A stretch of 64,000 bases of DNA, from assembly GCA_036172665.1 (NCBI GenBank), contig CM069875.1, positions 22,103,806 through 22,167,805 on the forward strand, read 5' to 3'. Position numbers and translations under genes: made by a program. The notes beneath the pieces are model-generated. The model had not been told where the DNA came from. It ran no database searches and was given only the letters and a program-made list of their open reading frames with translations. Origin of the DNA: Prosopocoilus inquinatus. Taxonomy: Eukaryota > Arthropoda > Insecta > Coleoptera > Lucanidae. Positions 13,625 through 53,348 of this stretch are shown here, piece after piece (the stretch's first letter is position 1; the number at the start of each line of letters is the position of its first letter).

Positions 13625-14691
13625 CGATTCTTTTCTATTTTTTCTTAATCTCAAATAACCTTAAAGAGAAAGAGTTTCCTGTGTTATTTTGGTTATTAAG
13701 AATATACTTACGAATTTTTCGATTTATTAATTTAATTTAGTAAAACTAAAATTAACCTCCGCCCACAATTTAATTTAGGACAAGATTTATCTCAGTTGTT
13801 TTTGGAAATTAAAAAAAATGTAGGTATAATTTTGAAGTATCTCCCCGTAAATAAAACAAAAATTCTTGATGAGAATAAACACAATATGGAAAGATGTGAG
13901 GAGTAATCCATCAAAGCTTATTTTATTGTCTGGAGACTAGCAAATTAAGTTACATCTATCAGATGTGCAGGAATTGCAATTCTGCGAAGACACCTCCAAA
14001 ACCGAACATCTTGAAGGCAAGCATATCCTGTTTGTGTAAAAATATCATTTTTAATCAATGAACAACACATCTCGTTTAATAGATGGTTTGTATACAACAG
14101 CCAGGGATATTTTTGATAATGATTTATACAGGGTGTCTTAGAAAAACTATTTCTAACTTTCAGAAATAATAGATAGCATGTACGAGGGAGGTTCACGCCA
14201 AAACAGGAATTTTCTCTGCGAGAGTAAAAATTGTTGAGATTTAGACCGTCTAGAAAGTATCAGGAATTATAAATATTTTCGAATTTTTTTCCATTATATG
14301 GCTTTCTCAACAGCTGAGAAGCGTAATATTTTTGTCAAAATCATTTTTCCAAATCAAATAAATAAAAGGGACAACAGACATTGAATTTTAACAATTTTAA
14401 ATAAGCAACGAGAAGTGTGCGCAGCGCAGTCGTCAAATTCATACACCAGCGTTGCAGAATTGACTTTCGTAGCATCACTACAAAAATAATCGGCATAACC
14501 TTGACTGCTCATCGTATTACATCTGACAATTTTTTTCAGCTATAGTTCATAGACAAAATTCAAATGCGCATCTTATTAAACGTGAAGTTAGGTCAGAATC
14601 AAAAACTTTGGTATTTTAAAGTTTTCACGTCTTGCAAAGTAAATTCACTTTATAATTTGAAATTTTGTGGTATATTAAGATTGCGTTAACA
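13625..14691. other. noncoding stretch
   Basis: No gene recognised; the 83-codon minus frame at 14196-13945 lacks any known motif. The text around 14130-14150 (CAGGGTGTCTTAGAAAAAC) resembles the CAGGGTG-starting dispersed repeats of insects, but its other end was not found. Confidence 0.4.
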
Positions 14692-17787: not shown

Positions 17788-19210
17788 ACTGTTATTGAAT
17801 GAGTTGCCTGAATCTCCCTGTATATGTTGCATAAAATAACACTGAATTATTTATTTGTAGTAGTTTTTTTCCCAATTTACACTGCAATGAAAAAGTAGAA
17901 GTATATTCAGAAGGTTTAAAACCAATTATAAAAGATTGGACTTTCCAATTTTATCCGCACTAAAGAGATTTCATTTCACGTGTAAGTTAACGAAAACCTT
18001 TCCTACTTCGAACCGGATCGTAAAACACCAGAGACTTTTTTTAAGAACCCAATAACCGAAGTAATCCAAGCGGTTTCTAAATTACATTTTATATAAAACT
18101 GTAACTTTCCTGAGATCAAACTTTAAAAATAACTCAGAAGAGTGGTTAAATGATTCGTCCACTTTACTGCAAAGTTATAAGTTACAAAATCTAGAAAAAG
18201 ATTCTAATGTGTGTAATTTTCTTTTTTAAGTGTGACGTGTTTCTTGTAAGTAAGTTTAACGCTTTCCATTTATATATTTCCGGTAGTACGTTGACCAATC
18301 AAAATTCGGTTTTATTTACGTGATTATAGTTTCATGTCAGTAAAAGCGAACTGGGATTGCTCAACATATTTCCGGAGACATATAAACGGATAGCTGTAAA
18401 CCTATGTGTAGAGCTTTTTAGCTTTAAGTTAGAGCTATTTCTGCGTTAACGTTAAAATAATAGAAATGCGACAATTAACGTGAGAAATTATTAACACGCT
18501 AAATTTAACATTGTAGCCACACTAAGGCCCATATGACATAAATATTTGCTGTGGTGACCTATCTTTGTCTTCTGTAACATTTTGTGGCAAATTATCATAT
18601 TTGGCGCTAAAAACAAATTATTGAGTAACAATAAGTTGAAACATTTTGCATTTAAACTATCTTGATGAATACTTTAATACCAACCATGTTTGCTAATGCA
18701 GCGTGTATAAAAAGAAAAAACGAAAAGGGTGTTTTTTTTTCATTTTTGAAATAGGAGGCTTTCATTTTGCACATAGCTATAGCTCCCAACTCTAACAATA
18801 TTTAAAGCATTTTCCAATTTGATTTCAAGCGTTCAGCATGCAGAAGCGGTCTACTTCAAAAAAAGTAATAAAAAACCCATTTGTTGCATACTTTTTGAAG
18901 ACGATGTATAATAACCTCATATTCAAAAGAACTTTCAACAAAATGTGTCTGGAAAAAATTTACTATGTCTAAATATTAAGTTTAAGGCTGCGTTTCATAA
19001 AACACTTAAACCAGGATTAAATGTAATCCTAAGTTAGAATGCGACAGATAGGATGACTAATTAACACATTTAAACTTTATGCGTAATCACATTCGAACTC
19101 GAAAAACGACGCGCGGGTTATGAAACTAGAACGCGGGCATTGCAATCTTTCCACACACCCAAGTGCGACCTAGTTAAGCAAATAAAATTGTATATTTGCA
19201 AACAAACCTG
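17788..19210. other. noncoding stretch
   Basis: No gene recognised. The segment at 18990-19130 has a short GTTTCATAA inverse pair and a GC-richer end, too little to call an element. Confidence 0.45.
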
Positions 19211-29458: not shown

Positions 29459-29679
29459 AATAAATTGCTGTAGTAATCTGAGATAAGGTTTTATATTCCA
29501 TAGCCTACCTTTATCAAAAATTTAAATGGACATATGGATGTAAAAATATATTTATTTTATAAAAGTTACTTTTTAGTGCATATTTAAGTGCATATTTTTG
29601 ATAATTTTGGTGCATATTTGCATGCATATTTTTAAGTTCTTTAATACATAATAATCCTAAGCTTAGTAATAACTTTAAC

Positions 29680-29691
29680 AATAATTTTATT
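29680..29691. repeat. target site duplication, left (12 bp)
   Basis: AATAATTTTATT, identical to 30161-30172 on the other side of the retrozyme-like insertion. The word is AT-rich, so chance identity is less remote than for a GC-rich duplication. Confidence 0.7.
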
Positions 29692-30160
29692 GAACATATA
29701 AATTAGCGACATCTTACTATCGCTTTTTGACCTAACATTGCAGTAGGATAGACAAATTGAAGCGGGATTTGCTCCTAATGAGTCCCCCATGCAAGGCGGC
29801 CATGCTTGCTGTCAAAGCATAATGAAAGATTTTAGAAAAATTTTGTGCAAATCGTTTTTGATTGCAGTGAGAACCTCGAGCAGCCTCTGGACAGCTGTTT
29901 CAGCCCTGCTTGGGGCTTCTTCAGCAGAAACGTAGCTCGACATTCCCACTGCAGACCAAAAACGACTTGCCCAATTTATTCGCAAATGCGATGTAAGAAT
30001 GATGAACATATAAAATAGCGACATCTTACTATCGCTTTTTGACCTAACATTGCAGTAGGATAGACAAATTGAAGCGGGATTTGCTCCTAATGAGTCCCCC
30101 ATGCAAGGCGGCCATGCTTGCTGTCAAAGCATAATGAAAGATTTTTTTTTTTTTTTTAAT
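29692..30160 (-). mobile_element. retrozyme-like tandem repeat, 312-bp unit, with hammerhead
   Basis: An insertion of one full 312-bp unit (29692-30003) plus the first 140 or so bases of the next (from 30004), in direct orientation. It is bounded by a 12-bp direct duplication, AATAATTTTATT, at 29680-29691 and 30161-30172. The right edge is a T16 run (30142-30157), i.e. poly(A) at the 5' side of the ribozyme-sense strand. There is no open frame of note, and it is richer in GC than the flanks. A tandem unit of about 300 bp with one hammerhead per unit matches the known layout of animal retrozymes; the name is inference. Homologous copies lie at 43270-43782 and, decayed, at 52310-52385. Confidence 0.8.
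29864..29952 (-). ncRNA. type-I hammerhead ribozyme
   Basis: Sense is the minus strand. The core reads CUGAAGA (fits CUGANGA), followed by stem II AGCCC/GGGCU with a loop, then GAA, then ACAGCUGU and C. A15.1 and U16.1 are both present, and C17 is the expected cleavage base, so cleavage would fall between 29890 and 29889. Stem I has UUUCUG opposite CAGAGG next to the core, an internal loop, then CGAGC/GCUCG and an outer GCAGUG/CACUGC stem. Stem III is the palindrome ACAGCUGU, so the ribozyme could fold with a two-pair stem or as a dimer with an eight-pair stem; short stems III of this kind are known in animal retrozymes. All conserved core positions are met. Confidence 0.83.
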
Positions 30161-30172
30161 AATAATTTTATT
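30161..30172. repeat. target site duplication, right (12 bp)
   Basis: AATAATTTTATT, identical to 29680-29691. Confidence 0.7.
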
Positions 30173-31465: not shown

Positions 31466-31502
31466 TTTTTTTTATAGAGGTTTAGAGAATCTTCCAAAGA
31501 CG

Positions 31503-31530
31503 CTCCCGGGTAGCTCTACCCCGGGAGTGT
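31503..31530. other. hairpin in the LINE 3' untranslated region
   Basis: CTCCCGGGTAG and CTACCCCGGGAG are near-perfect inverse complements around a short loop, close to the LINE 3' end. Stem-loops here can be recognition sites for the element's reverse transcriptase; that role is inference. Confidence 0.6.
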
Positions 31531-31629
31531 GTTGGATTCACCCCTTCATTTCTGCAGGGGCGCCTACCAACTAAACTCCTTTCCTCTTTTCCATGTTGCG
31601 GAAGGAGGGACCGCCTCTCGGCATTTCTT

Positions 31630-31815
31630 CTCCCTCCGAATGCAGTCTATCGCGTCCTCCTTATCCTTTTCTTCCCCATCCTCTTCCTTCCGCTACTTTC
31701 CCATCCTTTTCTTTCTCCTCTTCTTTCCCATCCTCTTCCTCTTCTCTCCTCTTCCTCCTCATCCTCTTCGCCCCCTCTTCTTTTCTCCTTTCCTCCTTTC
31801 CTTCACCTCTCGTTC
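31630..31815. repeat. pyrimidine-rich low-complexity tract in the LINE 3' region
   Basis: A run of CTTCC/TCTTCC-like words (purine-rich on the LINE sense strand) just beyond the ORF2 stop. Open frames across it on either strand are composition artefacts. Confidence 0.75.
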
Positions 31816-31835
31816 GCCTGATTATTTGCCTCGCT

Positions 31836-34740
31836 CTATCTATGATGTTCTCCAAGGCATTTACTTTTCATAATTTCTCGCAACATGTTCATGACAATCT
31901 CATGTTGGTCTTTTTTCAGTAGTTCTTCGACTATGTTTTCTTTTGTGATTGGATTTCCTAAGCCCAACTCTGATCTAATTCTCTCGTTTCGCCACCTCGG
32001 GCATATAAAAAAAGTGTGCTCCGTGGTGTCCTCGGCTTCTTGGCAAAACCAACACTCTGCCGTCTCTACCTTCTCGTAATCTTTCACGTATTTCCCGAAC
32101 GCGCCGTGTCCGGTGAACGCTTGTGTTATGTAATGATCTACCTCGCCATTTTGCACCACAACTCCACGTCCTTTATAAAGACCTTGGCCCAGCCCTGGTA
32201 GTTGTCCCATTGTCGTTGCCAGGCTTGATAAAGAGCATTCCTGGCCAAGGCCTTCGCGGCACGTCCTTCCTGGTATATTGTGATCCTCTCTTCGATCTGC
32301 AACCTAATGGGGGGGATTCCGGCCACGACCAGAACGGCGTCCGTCGAAACCGTTCTGTAAGCCGACGTCACTCTCACGGCCGCCAACCTGTTCAACCTTT
32401 CCAGCATCAATCCGTGGTGCGCGTACTTCATGGCATTTTTCCAAGCTTGTACCGCATACAAGATTATGGAGGAGACCACCGACGCCAGCAGTTTCCTCTT
32501 TTTGAACTTGGGATCTCCAACATTAGGCATCAGCCTGGCTAGTTCCGTATAGGCCTTGTGGGCCCTCGCGGCGGTCTCTTTGACGTGCGAGGTCTTCCTC
32601 CAATCTCTATCCAGGTGCACACCTAGGTATCGCACCTGTCTGGAGGACGTTACCTCGGAGCCATCGACTGTCAAGCCTATGCGAGTTAGATCTCTCTTAC
32701 CTGCCAGGACCAAGACCTCGGTTTTGTTCCCCCCCAGGGCCAGCTTCATCCTACCCAAAGTTTGTTGGACGATCTCCATCGCCAGCCCTGCCCGTTCCTT
32801 CAGCAGACGCACCGTCCTGGCAGTAACCACCACGGCCAGGTCATCCGCGTATGCGATTGTGGTAACCCCCTGTCCCAAGTCCACTTCCAGGATCCTGTTA
32901 TACATGGTATTCCACAGCGTTGGCCCCAGCACGGATCCCTGAGGGACCCCGCAGGTGAGGTTCATCCTCTCTCCCTGTTCATCGGTTATAAGTTCCCTGT
33001 CGGTGAGGTACGACCCGATCATGCGTTTAATACCATCGCTGATTTGGTTTTTGTGGAGTGCACCCATAATCTGCCTCCACGAGGCCGTATTAAATGCGTT
33101 TCTCATCCAGGGCAATTAAGATACAGTAGTGCCTGCTCTTATCGGCTAGTCTTCTGATCCCCTCGACGATTCCTTGAACCTGCATCAGTGCTGCAATCGT
33201 CGATCTTCCGGTTCTGAACCCGTGCTGGTTCTCGCGCCTCCAGCTCCTCGTTCAGACGATTCCTCAGGAGGGTCTCTAAAACCTTTCCGAGGACGTCTAA
33301 GAGACAAATAGGTCTATAGGTGGTCTCCTCAGCGAGTTGTTTCTTAGGTTTCTCGATGAGGACCAGGTTGGCCCTCTTCCATTGGTCCGGGAAATACCCT
33401 TGTCGGAGGCATCTATTATACACGTTTAGAAATACCTTCGGAATGGCGCCGATCATTTTCTTCACCACCTCTGGCGGGAGATGGTCCGGTCCCGGTGCCT
33501 TGGCTGCTTTAACCCTGGCTGCCGCGCGAATTAGTTCCTCCTCCGTGAAAGGGGGGGGGGGAAGCTTCCGATGAGGTCGTCCTCGTCCTCGCCACCCATT
33601 TCCTATCAATCGCCTCCGGAAAGAGTTGCCGCGCTTGTCTGCGTCTGAATCTCCTCCGGGTCGGGTCTGAACGCTCCACGCAGACGCAGTTTATTGGTGA
33701 CGATCTTATAAGCTTTCCCCCATACGTCGTCCTCCAGTTCGTTTCTCAACTCGTCCCAGCATTCAGCCTTACGTTTTTTAATGGCTTTTTTTAAAATTCA
33801 ACTTGGCATTCCTGTATTGGATCCATGCATGAATACGTTCGCCGTTTTCTCGGTTCGCACGATGCAAGCGGGTGGCTTTCCTTCTAGCAGCCACGCACTG
33901 TTTCCGGAACTCAGACATGGACCCGTTACACCAATATGCTGGGACTCTCATGTTGCCCCCTTTCTTTTTCTGAAGGTGCTTATCACACAGTGTCGTTAGT
34001 GCTTTGACTAATTCGTGCGGTTTCTTAGTATTTACGGGGTTACGGTGGTGAAATTCCGCAGCCATGATCTCCAGTCTGGCCGGGATCACCCTCCACCCTT
34101 TCGTTTCAGGGTTTATTCTTTCACCGCTAGCCATCTTGATAGAATACATAACAGCCCTGTGGTCGCTAACGCTTTCAATTTCCTCAGCGACTCTTCAGGT
34201 TACGATCTTTCTCGCCAAGCCGAGGGTAGCCATGGTAAAGTCGATGTGTGATTGTCCTCTACTGTTCAGGAAGGTCGGGGTGTCGCCTTGGTTCAACATC
34301 ACTATGTCGTTGGCATTTAGCCATTCTTCCAACAGCCTGCCCCTTTCATTAATGGTCCGGTTTGTCACACCTGACATTTTAGCGTTGAAGTCGCCGACCA
34401 CAAGGATGTCTCCATCGACGCTTCTCATGTGGGCTTCCAACCTGGCTAACAGATCTTTAAATCCCTCATTAGTTCCACTCGGTGGAAAATATACGTTGTA
34501 AATAGCACAACGCAAACACTCATAATAAATAAATATGTAAATAAAATTTTCAAAAATATCGCAGCCTTTCACCTTGAGTTTGTTGTTGTTCAAAAGAACA
34601 AACGTATCACATCTTATATCACATACCAAATTCCTAACTCTTCTCAGACTAGGCTCCTGACCGAGCAACAAATCAATATTCTCCTCCTGCATTACTTGTT
34701 TTGCGTGATCGAAGCCTCGGGATGCCTATCAGTGTTAAGT
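31836..34740 (-). pseudogene. LINE ORF2: endonuclease, reverse transcriptase, CCHC
   Basis: Reading from 34740 down, the endonuclease appears first: LLLGQEPSL, VVGDFNAK, then SHIDFTMA at 34692-34195. After a frameshift, ESVSDHRAVMYSI (the SDHR motif, near 34160) is followed by a linker to 33778. The reverse transcriptase starts with KAPGPDHLPPEVVKKM and TYRPICLLDVLGKVLE in 33609-33139. After another break, NAFNTASW, CGVPQGSVLGPTLWN and the catalytic IAYADDLAVVV come in 33115-32138. After a last frameshift, the C-terminal zinc motif CWFCQEAEDTTEHTFFIC lies in 32210-31836. Catalytic residues of each domain are present, but at least three frame breaks separate the parts. Confidence 0.9.
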
Positions 34741-34996
34741 TGAAGAATTCTTTTACGGGTAATCGTAGGAGAAATCCCGTTATGTCCCGTATTGCTCCGG
34801 TCATGGTGATCCTGTCTGCCTAATCTGTTGAGTTGGGAATGGTGTCGTCACGTTCCATTATCGATTATAATAATCTCTTCTGGCCTCTTTTCTCTTTGCT
34901 CAGTTGGCGTCTCTTGCAGCCGCTCATTCTGCGGTCTTGCTCTACCTGCCCGCGGGGTCCTTCTGGGCACGCTGTTTACCACCATGGGCAATTCCC

Positions 34997-36940
34997 TTAC
35001 GAACTCCTTCTGGCATCCTTGAGGGCAGCCTTAAATACCGGGCAGGCCCCGCTGTCAGCTCGGTGACCCTGGGCTTCGCATAAGGGACAAGCGGGCTCCT
35101 CAGTGCAGCTCTTTTTCAAGTGCCCCTTCCTTCCGCAATTCCTGCAGGAGTCTAGTCTGGAGGGCCCATCGTAGTTTTCCGTCAGATGGCGGTACGACTA
35201 ACATTTCCTGCATTTCTCCACCCTTACCCTAGCCTCCATTCGGCAGGGTACAAGGCCAATAGTTACTTCTTTCCTGCTCAGAAGTTCCTCCGCCTCAGTC
35301 ATCGGGAGAGTCACGGTAACCGCCTGAGTTTCATTGGCGTTCGGACTCAGTTTGCCAATCTTTATAACCTCCTCCGTTCGCTTACCTAAGGCCTTCTGGA
35401 CGGCTTCCTCAACGTCCTCTTTGTCCGCTAAGGCGTCCAATCCCCTTATATGTATCGTCTCCACCTTAGTTGAGTCCCCAATCTTTCTGACCCTTGTGGG
35501 CGCGACTTTTTCTGATATTTTAGTCTTTAGGCTTTCTAGGGCTTTCGAATCTTTCTGTACTGTGATGAGTAAGTTGCCCTCACGGGTGCTCCTAATGCCT
35601 TTCACCGTCTTGGAAGCAGGATCATCCCTTATTGCTTCCTTGACAATGCCCAAGGTTTCCGCATACTTCCTTCCTGCATTCTTCACCACTATTGCATAGG
35701 TCTTTCTGTCCTGCCCGTTCTTTCTGGTCTTACCGTGGATGGTCATGTTCTTCCCGGTTTCGTGGAAAACGCATTCCACCATCCTCCTCCACCTTCCTTC
35801 GCCCATTCCTTTGTGGTGGTACATTGCGATGGCACTGTCCCGTTCCGTCTCCTCCTTTAACTTATGAAGACTATTCCATATGAGACCATCGTCCCCACTC
35901 AGTACCATCTTGATCGCCTTTCTTTCCGTTTTGCCTGTCCCCCCGGCGTTTCTGATTCTACTCGATTGCTAAAGAACTTCGAAATCACCGTTGGTGCTTG
36001 CCAGCTCCGGAAACCTATTTCTGTATTCCCTTCTATCTTCCGTTATAAGATTCACGTCCCTCTCGTCCGTGAGGATGACCTGCACCGCTTCTGGGTGCAA
36101 TTCCAACGGGCTGCCATCCTCCGTCTTTGTGACTTTAAAAACATCCTCGGCCCATATTAATTCGGCTACGCTTTTCCATCCCTCTGCCGACTTTATTTTC
36201 GAGGGATCTACTTGTTGTTCCCCCCTACGCCATGCCGACGTCTGCTTCGTAGCGTCTCTGTATTGTTTTGCTTGAACCTTAGGTTCGTCCGCTACCGCTT
36301 CACCCACTGATTCTTTGCCGTTAGATACCAGGATTTCCTCCTCCTGATATCTCCTGTCCTTTAACCACTCCTTGACGGACTCTCTGTTAAATATTTCGAT
36401 GGTCCTCCTGATTTTAACGTTTGTATTCTTAATTTCCCTTTTTGTGTTTGGATTTGCCTCGATCAATCTTTCCAAATCTTTCCCTTGTCTATTAATCTGT
36501 TCAATGGCCTCCATTATCGTGAACACCATTGGGCACTCCCGCTTTTTGAACCGGCACTCCCCCTCTATGGAGTCCCTTGGCCTCTTTTTATTATTACTGT
36601 CCATATCCGCTGAGTGTGACCTCTGATACTGGATATATCTGACATTTGCCCTGGGCCGGCTGTTACTATATTTGCTTATATTCCCTTCGTGCATCTTGCT
36701 CAGCGCAACGATGCGTTGCGAGAGCAAGGGGAGTGTTGTTTCACTACTGGCCGTCCAGGCTTTTGCCACAGGCGTCTCTTTCTCGACGGCCTTGGTTTTG
36801 GTTTTTGTAATTGCCCCAGTATTTGCACCTGGAGCCTGTGTCTCTGTGCCCTTTTTTGGGGAGGTAGGATCCTCCATGTAAAGCTTGATATCCATCCAAG
36901 AATTGTTTATAAATCCCCATTGACGCTCCCCACCCACCAC
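34997..36940 (-). pseudogene. LINE ORF1: gag-like protein with zinc knuckles
   Basis: From 36940 an open frame encodes a lysine- and glutamate-rich protein of 323 codons to 35969, and after a break the frame 35908-35198 continues with a domain ending in EARVRVEKCRKC. The next codon is an in-frame TAG. Beyond it the same frame continues through two good zinc knuckles, CRNCGRKGHLKKSC and CPLCEAQGHRADSGAC, to a TAA at 34999-34997. The first knuckle (CRKC...H....Y) has lost its last cysteine to tyrosine. ORF1 proteins of this type bind the element's RNA. The stop and the break make it non-functional. Confidence 0.85.
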
Positions 36941-37503
36941 GGAGCCACAAATGGGACGGGGAACTTCCTCCGTCAGGACTACGTCGCCGGGGGTCCTATT
37001 TTACGCGGCCTGGGCTAATCGTAAGTTCGCGAATCCTGCGGACGGACGGGCCGCAGTTGCCGTCTATACGGAAGCTGGGGCCAAAGTGAAGTGTTGGGAC
37101 CTCCTCAGCCACCAGGATCCCCTTTTCCAGCGCTATGGCTAAGCCACGCATGCGACTAAGTGGGTCCTCGGACAGGACAGGAAGTGGTAAGGAATAGCTG
37201 AAAGCGAGAAAGATCCCTAGCCCTTGATACCTAATTGCATCGGGATCTGAAGCAAGCAAGAACCGAGACCAGATGGTCTCTGAATAGGAAAGCTATAAAG
37301 AAAAGGAGCACATACCTTTTTAGACAAGTTGAAGAATGGTTTGTGCCCAGCTAGGCACCTCGGGGCGCCGCTCCCGCTTACTAGCGTGATTCTTAGGGCC
37401 CATCCTCCTTTATCCGGACTATGGACCGGCAACGGCGACCCCCCGGCATCCCTGCTGCGCGAACGCAACGCAATGACAATAGACAGCCGCCGCAGGCGGA
37501 GTT
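36941..37503 (-). other. LINE 5' leader
   Basis: GC-rich sequence upstream of ORF1 up to the target duplication. It contains overlapping open frames without domains; non-LTR elements usually hold their internal promoter here. Confidence 0.6.
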
Positions 37504-43256: not shown

Positions 43257-43269
43257 CAATTTTGTTTAC
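43257..43269. repeat. target site duplication, left (13 bp)
   Basis: CAATTTTGTTTAC, identical to 43783-43795, bounding the inverted hammerhead insertion. Confidence 0.82.
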
Positions 43270-43301
43270 AAAAAATTTTTTTGTGCAAATCGTTTTTGAT
43301 T

Positions 43302-43390
43302 GCAGTGAGAACCTCGAGCAGCCTCTGGACAGCTGTTTCAGCCCTGCTTGGGGCTTCTTCAGCAGAAACGTAGCTCGACATTCCCACTGC
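43302..43390 (-). ncRNA. type-I hammerhead ribozyme, copy 2
   Basis: Identical by eye to 29864-29952 over the core: CUGAAGA, stem II AGCCC/GGGCU, GAA, ACAGCUGU, C17. Stem I is complete (GCAGUG...CACUGC outer pairing). Predicted cleavage lies between 43328 and 43327. Confidence 0.83.
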
Positions 43391-43540
43391 AGACCAAAAA
43401 CGACTTGCCCAATTTATTCGCAAATGCGATGTAAGACTGATGAACATATAAAATAGCGACATCTTACTATCGCTTTTTGACCTAACATTGCAGTAAGATA
43501 GACAAATTGAAGCGGGATTTGCTCCTAATGAGTCCCCCAT

Positions 43541-43608
43541 GTTTCTGCTGAAGAAGCCCCAAGCAGGGCTGAAACAGCTGTCCAGAGGCTGCTCGAGGTT
43601 CTCACTGC
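43541..43608 (+). ncRNA. hammerhead ribozyme, copy 3, stem I truncated
   Basis: The plus strand has the full core and the inner stem I (TTTCTG opposite CAGAGG), but the inversion breakpoint at 43540/43541 removes the 5' strand of the outer stem I. Cleavage would fall between 43582 and 43583. The core may still cleave, but loss of the loop contacts of stem I should lower activity. Confidence 0.75.
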
Positions 43609-43782
43609 AATCAAAAACGATTTGCACAAAATTTTTCTAAAATCTTTCATTATGCTTTGACAGCAAGCATGGCCGCCTTGCATGGGGGACTCATTAGGAG
43701 CAAATCCCGCTTCAATTTGTCTATCCTACTGCAATGTTAGGTCAAAAAGCGATAGTAAGATGTCGCTATTTTATATGTTCAT

Positions 43783-43795
43783 CAATTTTGTTTAC
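43783..43795. repeat. target site duplication, right (13 bp)
   Basis: CAATTTTGTTTAC, identical to 43257-43269. Confidence 0.82.
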
Positions 43796-52309: not shown

Positions 52310-52385
52310 GATATCCTGCAGACGAAGCCAAATAGGACCAAAACAGCTGCTCGAGGGACCTATTGCAATCAAAAACGATTTGCAA
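52310..52385 (+). ncRNA. decayed copy of the retrozyme-like hammerhead
   Basis: The text GAAGCCAAATAGGACCAAAA then CAGCTGCTCGAGGG and TTGCAATCAAAAACGATTTG aligns with the ribozyme and its downstream flank at 43541-43640. GAAAC has become AAAAC with a preceding change, and the C17 region is deleted, so it cannot be active. It shows an older layer of the same family. Confidence 0.7.
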
Positions 52386-53348
52386 AAAAAACTTTAAAAA
52401 CTAGAATTTTTAAAAACTCAATCGAGTAGCAACTGCGTCCAATTTATTCATGGTTTGGTTCAGAATTCAAGATTTACCAATTCGATTCAGATCATCATCA
52501 TCATTTAAAAATATTTAGTTTTAAGAATCTTAAAAAATCGCATATCTAAGGAAGAGCGGGGTACCCTCACTTTAAATCCGCTACTGCGCTTACTTCATTA
52601 GATTAGATTAGATTAAATCTAAAGTAAGTAATTGTAATTACAATTAATTTCCTCTAAGATTTGAAATTCGAGATGAAGATGGCTGACTCTAAGTTTATGA
52701 GTTTGATGAAGAAGAAATAATAAAAAATAGACACTACAGTGTTCCCATATCTACCGGACGAGCGGACGCTTGCGTGTGTTATGGCTTGAGATAAAAGCTC
52801 TTAAAAAACAGGCAACTAACTGCTCCCATTCTTGATCAAAGAATGAAGAGCAGTATGAGGTGGCCAAGAAAGAGAAAGATTTTTTGCTAGGCGACGCGAC
52901 GCATTTGGTGGCTTCCAGGCTGCAACGGCCGTTTAAGATCAACTTTTGAAGTGTCTTGAGCGTTTTAAATGACTCGAACCTTCTGAAATATCTTGGTTCT
53001 GTAGAAATTAATCAAACGCCAAGAGATGATGCAATAAAATTGAAGGGTACTTATACTTCATGTTTAACCACGAGAACAATTAATTCGACGATCCAGTGCA
53101 TGATAAAGGAAAAAAGCTAATTGAGTACGGGCTCGCTAGGATTTATAAGGGCCGGTTTTCGGCTTTTGAAATTGTTCGTCAATGAAATTGGGCATTAAAC
53201 AGATAAATTTTAAGGTATTTAAAAAGTGGCCTAATGCAAAAGGGTTGCAATAAGTGTTTGATAGTGGTATCAGGTGGTATCGGACAATAGAGAAAATATG
53301 TGAGTCGAATTTATTGGAATAGAAACAATAAATAAAGAATAAAAAAAT
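52386..53348. other. noncoding stretch
   Basis: Contains a short ATC microsatellite (about 52491-52505). No gene recognised. Confidence 0.45.

Follow-up and report, generated by a model that had tools for sequence, protein, structure and literature searches.

Background

Animal non-LTR retrozymes were defined by Cervera and de la Pena (2020; PMC7229834), and the sections of that paper used here name Penelope-like elements (PLEs) as candidate mobilisers. A 2020 review (PMC7761336) states, in the passage that concerns us, that the repeats carry no conserved motif from which the autonomous partner could be deduced and that PLEs are likely. The excerpts of PMC11167929 used here, on the Poseidon PLE of Anolis, report that the purified protein acts on both strands, cleaving and extending each, and that it starts at two internal RNA sites, the interval between them being the genomic tail. 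The corresponding part of PMC3846280, on Penelope elements of Adineta, reports flanks in inverted orientation, one of which may carry a tail, and puts forward self-priming.

The window analyzed here is a stretch of 64,000 nucleotides from the lucanid beetle Prosopocoilus inquinatus (contig CM069875.1), in which an initial annotation made from the sequence alone had described one retrozyme-like tandem insertion. The retrozyme adds one more family to a class already described; what is new is the anatomy of its insertions and the bearing of that anatomy on the mechanism. Our search of the open-licence PMC text found no description of inverted two-site ends of retrozymes, and a search of open-licence PMC for retrozymes together with twin priming found nothing.

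Results and discussion

The retrozyme unit and its hammerhead

The repeat at 29692-30160 has a period of 312 bp and contains 1.45 units in tandem (Table 1, in which q denotes the position in the unit). The 312-bp tandem unit of the initial annotation is borne out by direct copies of 143 nt each at 29691-29833 and 30003-30145, which are spaced 312 nt apart and are 99% identical, and the 12-bp flanking duplication that it reported is exact over 12 nt within a repeat of 18 nt with one mismatch (29674-29691 and 30155-30172). We also recovered the complete minus-strand hammerhead with a long two-part stem I: all core letters are present on that strand, with stem II AGCCC/GGGCU and C17 at 29890, and the two-part stem I extends to 29954/29863. 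Site A, at about q175, lies 60 nt beyond the predicted hammerhead cut. Insertion 1 is one-directional, starting at site B and ending in the T-run at site A. The unit has a low GC content (43.3%), its circular fold is predicted at -112.1 kcal/mol compared with -75.2 (sd 5.0) in 200 shuffles, and a search of 29692-30160 for open frames of at least 150 aa found none.

Table 1. Positions in the window of the two retrozyme insertions and their parts
Feature	Position	Strand	Remarks
Target duplication, insertion 1, left copy AATAATTTTATT	29680..29691	.	12 bp; 18 nt with one mismatch from 29674
Target duplication, insertion 1, right copy	30161..30172	.	12 bp
Retrozyme insertion 1, unidirectional	29692..30160	-	One full unit and 141 nt of a second
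Full 312-nt unit	29693..30004	-	q1 = 30004, q312 = 29693
Second unit, partial, q172-312	30005..30145	-	
Type-I hammerhead ribozyme (predicted), long two-part stem I, q51-142	29863..29954	-	
Hammerhead core CUGAAGA - stem II - GAA - stem III ACAGCUGU - C17	29890..29924	-	
Hammerhead cut (predicted)	between 29890 and 29889	-	
Site A, q171-176	29829..29834	-	One of two fixed outer ends across insertions
Site B, q312/q1, ..AUAUGUUC	29692..29693	-	Other fixed end; outer end of insertion 1
Run of 16 T	30142..30157	+	Presumed cDNA of insertion 1 ended at AAAA of site A
Target duplication, insertion 2, left copy CAATTTTGTTTAC	43257..43269	.	13 bp
Insertion 2, left arm, outer end site A	43270..43541	-	q~170 to q1, then q312 to q214
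Insertion 2, right arm, q74-312, outer end site B	43541..43782	+	
Hammerhead core, intact, left arm of insertion 2	43328..43362	-	
Hammerhead core, right arm of insertion 2	43548..43582	+	Arm begins q74
Target duplication, insertion 2, right copy	43783..43795	.	13 bp

The insertions are almost certainly an animal non-LTR retrozyme, judged by their sequence features. The type-I core is complete, the 312-nt unit falls within the range of about 170-400 nt for tandem units, GC is low, target duplications exceed 4 bp, no frame reaches 150 aa and hammerhead PLEs are resident in the same genome. These features support the retrozyme reading that had been proposed for insertion 1.

Two checks that had been suggested for it did not help to decide the matter. 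None of the Rfam hammerhead models matched the window at the gathering score, the best listed being RF02275 (14.5 bits, E 1.8, in a listing up to E 10). Mean divergence is 0.020 in the core and 0.043 in the unit (44 insertions), a difference that is not significant (P 0.16, rank 48 of 312 rotations). Fold prediction for q51-142 prefers a decoy CUG/CAG pairing (-49.9) to the ribozyme fold, which is put at -45.0 (-43.9 when stem III is included), an advantage of at least 4.9 kcal/mol. Because the decoy pairing is preferred and stem III is palindromic, analogy with the axolotl retrozyme, as presented in the relevant section of PMC7229834, suggests that the hammerhead may act as a dimer.

Family size and variation

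The core pattern CTGANGAN{8,22}GAAACAGCTGTH matches the genome exactly at 18,389 places (9,245 + 9,144) and the reversed-pattern control at 2, so that its abundance is beyond chance. Two control windows of the unit gave 17,798 and 12,648 matches, counts that decide nothing, as coverage along the unit is probably uneven. A DNA search of the 650-Mb genome returned at least 117 matches to the unit, with 40 of 100 candidates scored. Hammerhead rules permit variation at N7 and either C or A at H17. The core is intact in 33 of 42 distinct copies. Over all 42, N7 is A in 37, G in 2, C in 2 and T in 1, and H17 is C in 25, A in 15 and G in 2. Covariation among these copies is weak because they are much alike: paired cells amount to 97.9% (97.8% when shuffled), the score is matched by 27 of 500 shuffles, and the alignment contains one double change, which speaks neither for nor against the hammerhead. 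The pair q60/q134 is found as GC, GU and AU.

Two same-strand cores with a different stem II lie 220 bp apart at C1:3993818 and C1:3994038 and perhaps represent a retrozyme family with a shorter unit. As a separate observation on the assembly, it contains 42 COX1-like matches (for example C6:31279764-31281104), most with TGA in frame, and they are probably mitochondrial insertions. A COX1 stretch of 1,000 bases, translated with the invertebrate mitochondrial code, agrees at 99% protein identity with a Lucaninae entry, the best of 120 listed, which makes a stag beetle the most likely host; the stretch itself may be a nuclear copy.

Insertion anatomy across the genome

We parsed insertions automatically in a sample made up of 38 loci from a similarity-ranked list, 20 regions containing the first 22 core-pattern places, which require an intact core and are otherwise unselected, and insertion 1. 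The parse yielded 70 insertions, 57 of them inverted head to head and 13 one-directional, some of the latter being old fragments. Every one of the 57 inverted insertions has its outer left arm on the minus and its outer right arm on the plus strand, both antisense reading inward. With end windows set at q163-186 for A and at q295-312 or q1-8 for B, 109 of the 114 outer ends fall inside one or the other, typically at q~171-180 (..UUUUUCUAAAAU) and at q312/1 (..AUAUGUUC). Both ends could be placed in 52 inverted insertions (48 A/B, 3 B/B and 1 A/A), and the remaining five have one end beyond both windows. By their flanks, five entries (L034, L046 twice and L060 twice) are segmental duplicates, four of them A/B; once duplicate loci are dropped, A/B accounts for 44 of 48 (binomial P about 8e-10, calculated by hand with p = 0.5). 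The sole A/A case (L087) appears by eye to be two adjacent A/B insertions; L065 has a B/B appearance with a target duplication, and L050 and L087, both with more than one strand switch, may each represent a pair of insertions. In the list-ordered sample, 17 insertions were A/B when read by hand; the automatic parse, whose counts are used here, has 14 A/B, 1 A/A and 1 with one end unresolved.

Where recognizable, the target duplications are 7-14 bp long. Over the 70 parsed insertions, the longest flank match has a median of 10 bp compared with 4 in mismatched flanks, and it reaches at least 7 bp in 63% compared with 10%. The automatic duplication finder misses cases in which the match runs into the flank or a homopolymer has been added; it scores insertion 1 as 5 bp where 12 bp are exact, and L031 as 4 bp where 9 are seen by eye. 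In the 33 A/B insertions with matches of at least 8 bp, AT makes up about 80% of the flanks, and G, the complement of q1, precedes B in 55%. Neighboring retrozyme cores within 1,000 bp, in the first 100 listed from one contig, are oriented -+ in 13 cases, +- in 0, -- in 4 and ++ in 2.

The window itself holds a second insertion, at 43270-43782, of the typical A/B head-to-head form and with a 13-bp target duplication; it was identified after counting and enters no insertion count. The hammerhead in its right arm lacks the distal 5' strand of stem I, since that arm begins at q74. Judged by the parsed copies, the typical insertion of this retrozyme is inverted and two-site, and insertion 1, on one strand only, is a minority form. 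The initial annotation saw insertion 1 correctly and overlooked the second insertion, the prevailing inverted two-site anatomy and the link to PLEs discussed below.

Other sequences in the window include a unit-like 44-bp fragment at 52346-52389 (q121-164, 86%) and a LINE at 31476-37000 with APE-type endonuclease and RT domains. Directly behind this LINE, at 31476-31596 on the minus strand, is a match to the Rfam R2 RNA element RF00524 (50.9 bits). Given its APE-type endonuclease and RT domains the LINE is apparently not an R2, and it may be a LINE of non-R2 type with an R2-like RNA structure. At least 36 RF00524 matches are listed in the genome (51 scored of 29,438 candidates).

Penelope-like elements in the same genome

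A PLE-type hammerhead pattern has 4,113 genome matches, which are candidate PLE hammerheads, and its control has 0. A 788-aa open frame with RVT_1 and GIY-YIG domains (L071) stands beside PLE-type cores. Among 150 GIY-YIG hits scored of 2,232 candidates, 90 form 45 pairs in -/+ orientation, and PLE-type core neighbors within 5,000 bp, in the first 100 listed, are -+ in 21 cases, +- in 1 and -- in 1. All eight PLE loci that we read (six of family 1, two of family 2) have a tail at one end and none at the other. In each of the six family-1 loci one end is at ..CTCACTATTTATTT and the other lies 37 nt beyond; five of these loci were picked because they form close pairs and the sixth for its open frame, a selection that forces inversion in the six but not the presence of one end of each kind. 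In family 2 (L095 and a small insertion inside L037), read by eye, the tail is likewise on one end and has a different sequence. A short fragment resembling the stretch before site A of family 2, at about 13741-13776 of the window (minus strand), was left out of the locus count.

Two fixed starts, one per end of an inverted insertion, are seen in 48 of 52 resolved retrozyme insertions and in 8 of 8 PLE loci. The presumed hammerhead cut precedes site A by 48 nt in PLE family 1 and by 60 nt in the retrozyme, and the tail measures 37 nt compared with 137 nt. Besides the hammerhead layout, comparison of the unit with the PLEs found no convincing sequence match; at the start sites the one candidate for a common sequence is a CTATTTTA near site B in PLE family 2 (two copies seen), which family 1 lacks. 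The unit was also considered as a PLE in its own right and rejected, having 312 nt and no frame of 150 aa or more and so no RT and GIY-YIG endonuclease. The retrozyme insertions bear the integration scar of the PLEs of the same genome, a hint at the mobilizing enzyme, and on this pattern the retrozyme is likely moved by PLE machinery.

Proposed mechanism and the nature of the template

The copies themselves display fixed ends, inverted order, target duplications, laps and the same signature in the genome's PLEs. As an account of them we consider likely a two-ended, rolling-circle form of target-primed reverse transcription, in which a PLE enzyme would copy a retrozyme circle. By analogy with published retrozymes, hammerhead self-cleavage of tandem transcripts would release 312-nt monomers, which would then be circularized. 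A reverse transcriptase/endonuclease, presumably that of a PLE, would break AT-rich DNA in a staggered manner. Reverse transcription on the circle would be primed by the 3' end of each strand, at site A for one and at site B for the other. Each cDNA could run several laps, as a circle has no end, and the two cDNAs would be joined head to head, giving an inverted element with an A end, a B end and a short target duplication.

The evidence on the template comes from 43 A/B insertions with one inversion, duplicates dropped (86 arms). Their inner arm ends are independent of each other: the circular distance has a median of 75, compared with 78 for a uniform distribution, and two insertions have inner ends within 10 nt of each other where 2.9 are expected. 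Of the 43 arms of each kind, 40 A-arms and 23 B-arms cross the hammerhead cut, and one inner end of 86 lies within 5 nt of it (3.0 expected). Twenty of the 86 arms are longer than one lap, and one arm of L031 has nine whole units in a row. In PLEs, for which arm length was judged from the length of the open frame as a stand-in, the two arms agree within 10 aa in 18 of 45 pairs, 11 of them being equal, against a mean of 2.0 and a maximum of 10 in 5,000 shuffles. We read the PLE template as linear with a common 5' end and, because of the independent arm ends, the read-through of the cut site and the multi-lap arms, the retrozyme template as having no end. The contrast between PLEs, often equal-armed, and unequal, multi-lap retrozymes is evidence for an endless template drawn from DNA only, and the retrozyme template is probably a circle. 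A stop of the reverse transcriptase at the hammerhead, hinted at by the ends of L066 (q143) and L067 (q142), was not upheld by the other insertions. Inner arm ends in q51-142 number 27 of 86, compared with 25.4 expected, and the ends do not depart clearly from a uniform spread (KS P 0.064).

Ten variants private to an insertion occur on both of its arms, in 8 of 47 insertions (mean 0.47 and maximum 3 in 200 controls). A further 95 are private to one arm, which later mutation would also produce. The variant G295A of L031 is present in 13 of 13 segments covering q295. At q302 (window 29703 and 30015), an A/T switch, end and inner segments of one insertion disagree in 11 of 37 comparisons from 36 insertions, including insertion 1. 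On this discordance, a single template does not always suffice; candidate causes are a mixture of templates or a position that the enzyme misreads.

An uncut multimeric linear transcript, on any unit of which the PLE enzyme could start at A and B, would likewise read through the cut site and yield several laps, and the q302 discordance within insertions is to its credit. On the other hand it would require a uniform source array in the case of L031, with the same private variant throughout both arms, and retrozyme arm ends have no common 5' end, unlike PLE arms. We regard a linear multimer as unlikely, although it deserves consideration. A more specific version of the circle that we prefer is about as likely as not. 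In it, one RNA circle would be bound by a PLE dimer and primed by both 3' overhangs, at A by one and at B by the other, both polymerases would copy this circle over less than one to many laps before the ends are joined, and each array would be the direct read-out of one integration. If this were true, the two-site rule would serve as the mechanistic signature of PLE integration, with animal retrozymes as parasites of PLEs that exploit an endless template.

The remaining alternatives concern the enzyme and the origin of the inversion. The enzyme of a LINE, such as the APE-type LINE at 31476-37000, might move the retrozyme, the inversions being products of twin priming. LINEs also give target duplications of such length, and one adjoins insertion 1. 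In LINE twin priming, however, the second start is variable and a minority of insertions are affected, whereas here two fixed internal outer ends occur, nearly always one of each, most parsed insertions are inverted, and the two-site pattern is shared by the genome's PLEs; we hold a LINE origin to be very improbable. About as improbable is the folding back of one cDNA by self-priming, as proposed for rotifer Penelope, where the pertinent part of PMC3846280 inferred it from palindromes at inverted junctions. The often symmetric PLE arms of the beetle would suit it, but under it both ends would be alike and the arms symmetric, and the retrozyme has A plus B ends and asymmetric arms. Very improbable too is an inert satellite DNA that recombination has spread and that carries a fossil hammerhead, a reading favored by the non-significant core conservation, the control-window counts and the decoy fold given above and opposed by dispersed insertions with target duplications and fixed ends, by near-identical young copies and, weakly, by the scarcity of G at H17 (171 pattern matches; 171 of 18,560 cores), where C and A are subfamily letters and T lay outside the count.

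Comparison with known systems

Plant LTR retrozymes, as described in the portion of PMC4918200 used here, are similarly non-autonomous, carry a hammerhead and have a circular RNA cycle, which for the beetle element is conjectural. They have a type-III hammerhead, LTRs and 4-bp duplications, whereas the beetle element has a type-I hammerhead and longer duplications. Closer are the animal non-LTR retrozymes of PMC7229834, which, in the sections cited, resemble it in unit size, tandem units, low GC, target duplications, co-resident PLEs and a type-I core with a short palindromic stem III. They are described there as direct tandem repeats, whereas the beetle insertions are mostly inverted head to head with two fixed ends.

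The inverted form with two fixed ends is shared with the canonical EN+ PLEs, which in the parts of PMC11167929 and PMC3846280 considered here are alike in their two internal starts, inverted flanks and one-end tail, and also in their short target duplications, AT-rich targets and a hammerhead upstream of the starts. Unlike them, the retrozyme lacks a long open frame, separates A and B by 137 nt compared with about 30-40, and has unequal arms that sometimes run over several laps. In the excerpts of PMC11167929 no strand difference in start site was seen, whereas the two ends of a beetle retrozyme insertion nearly always differ.
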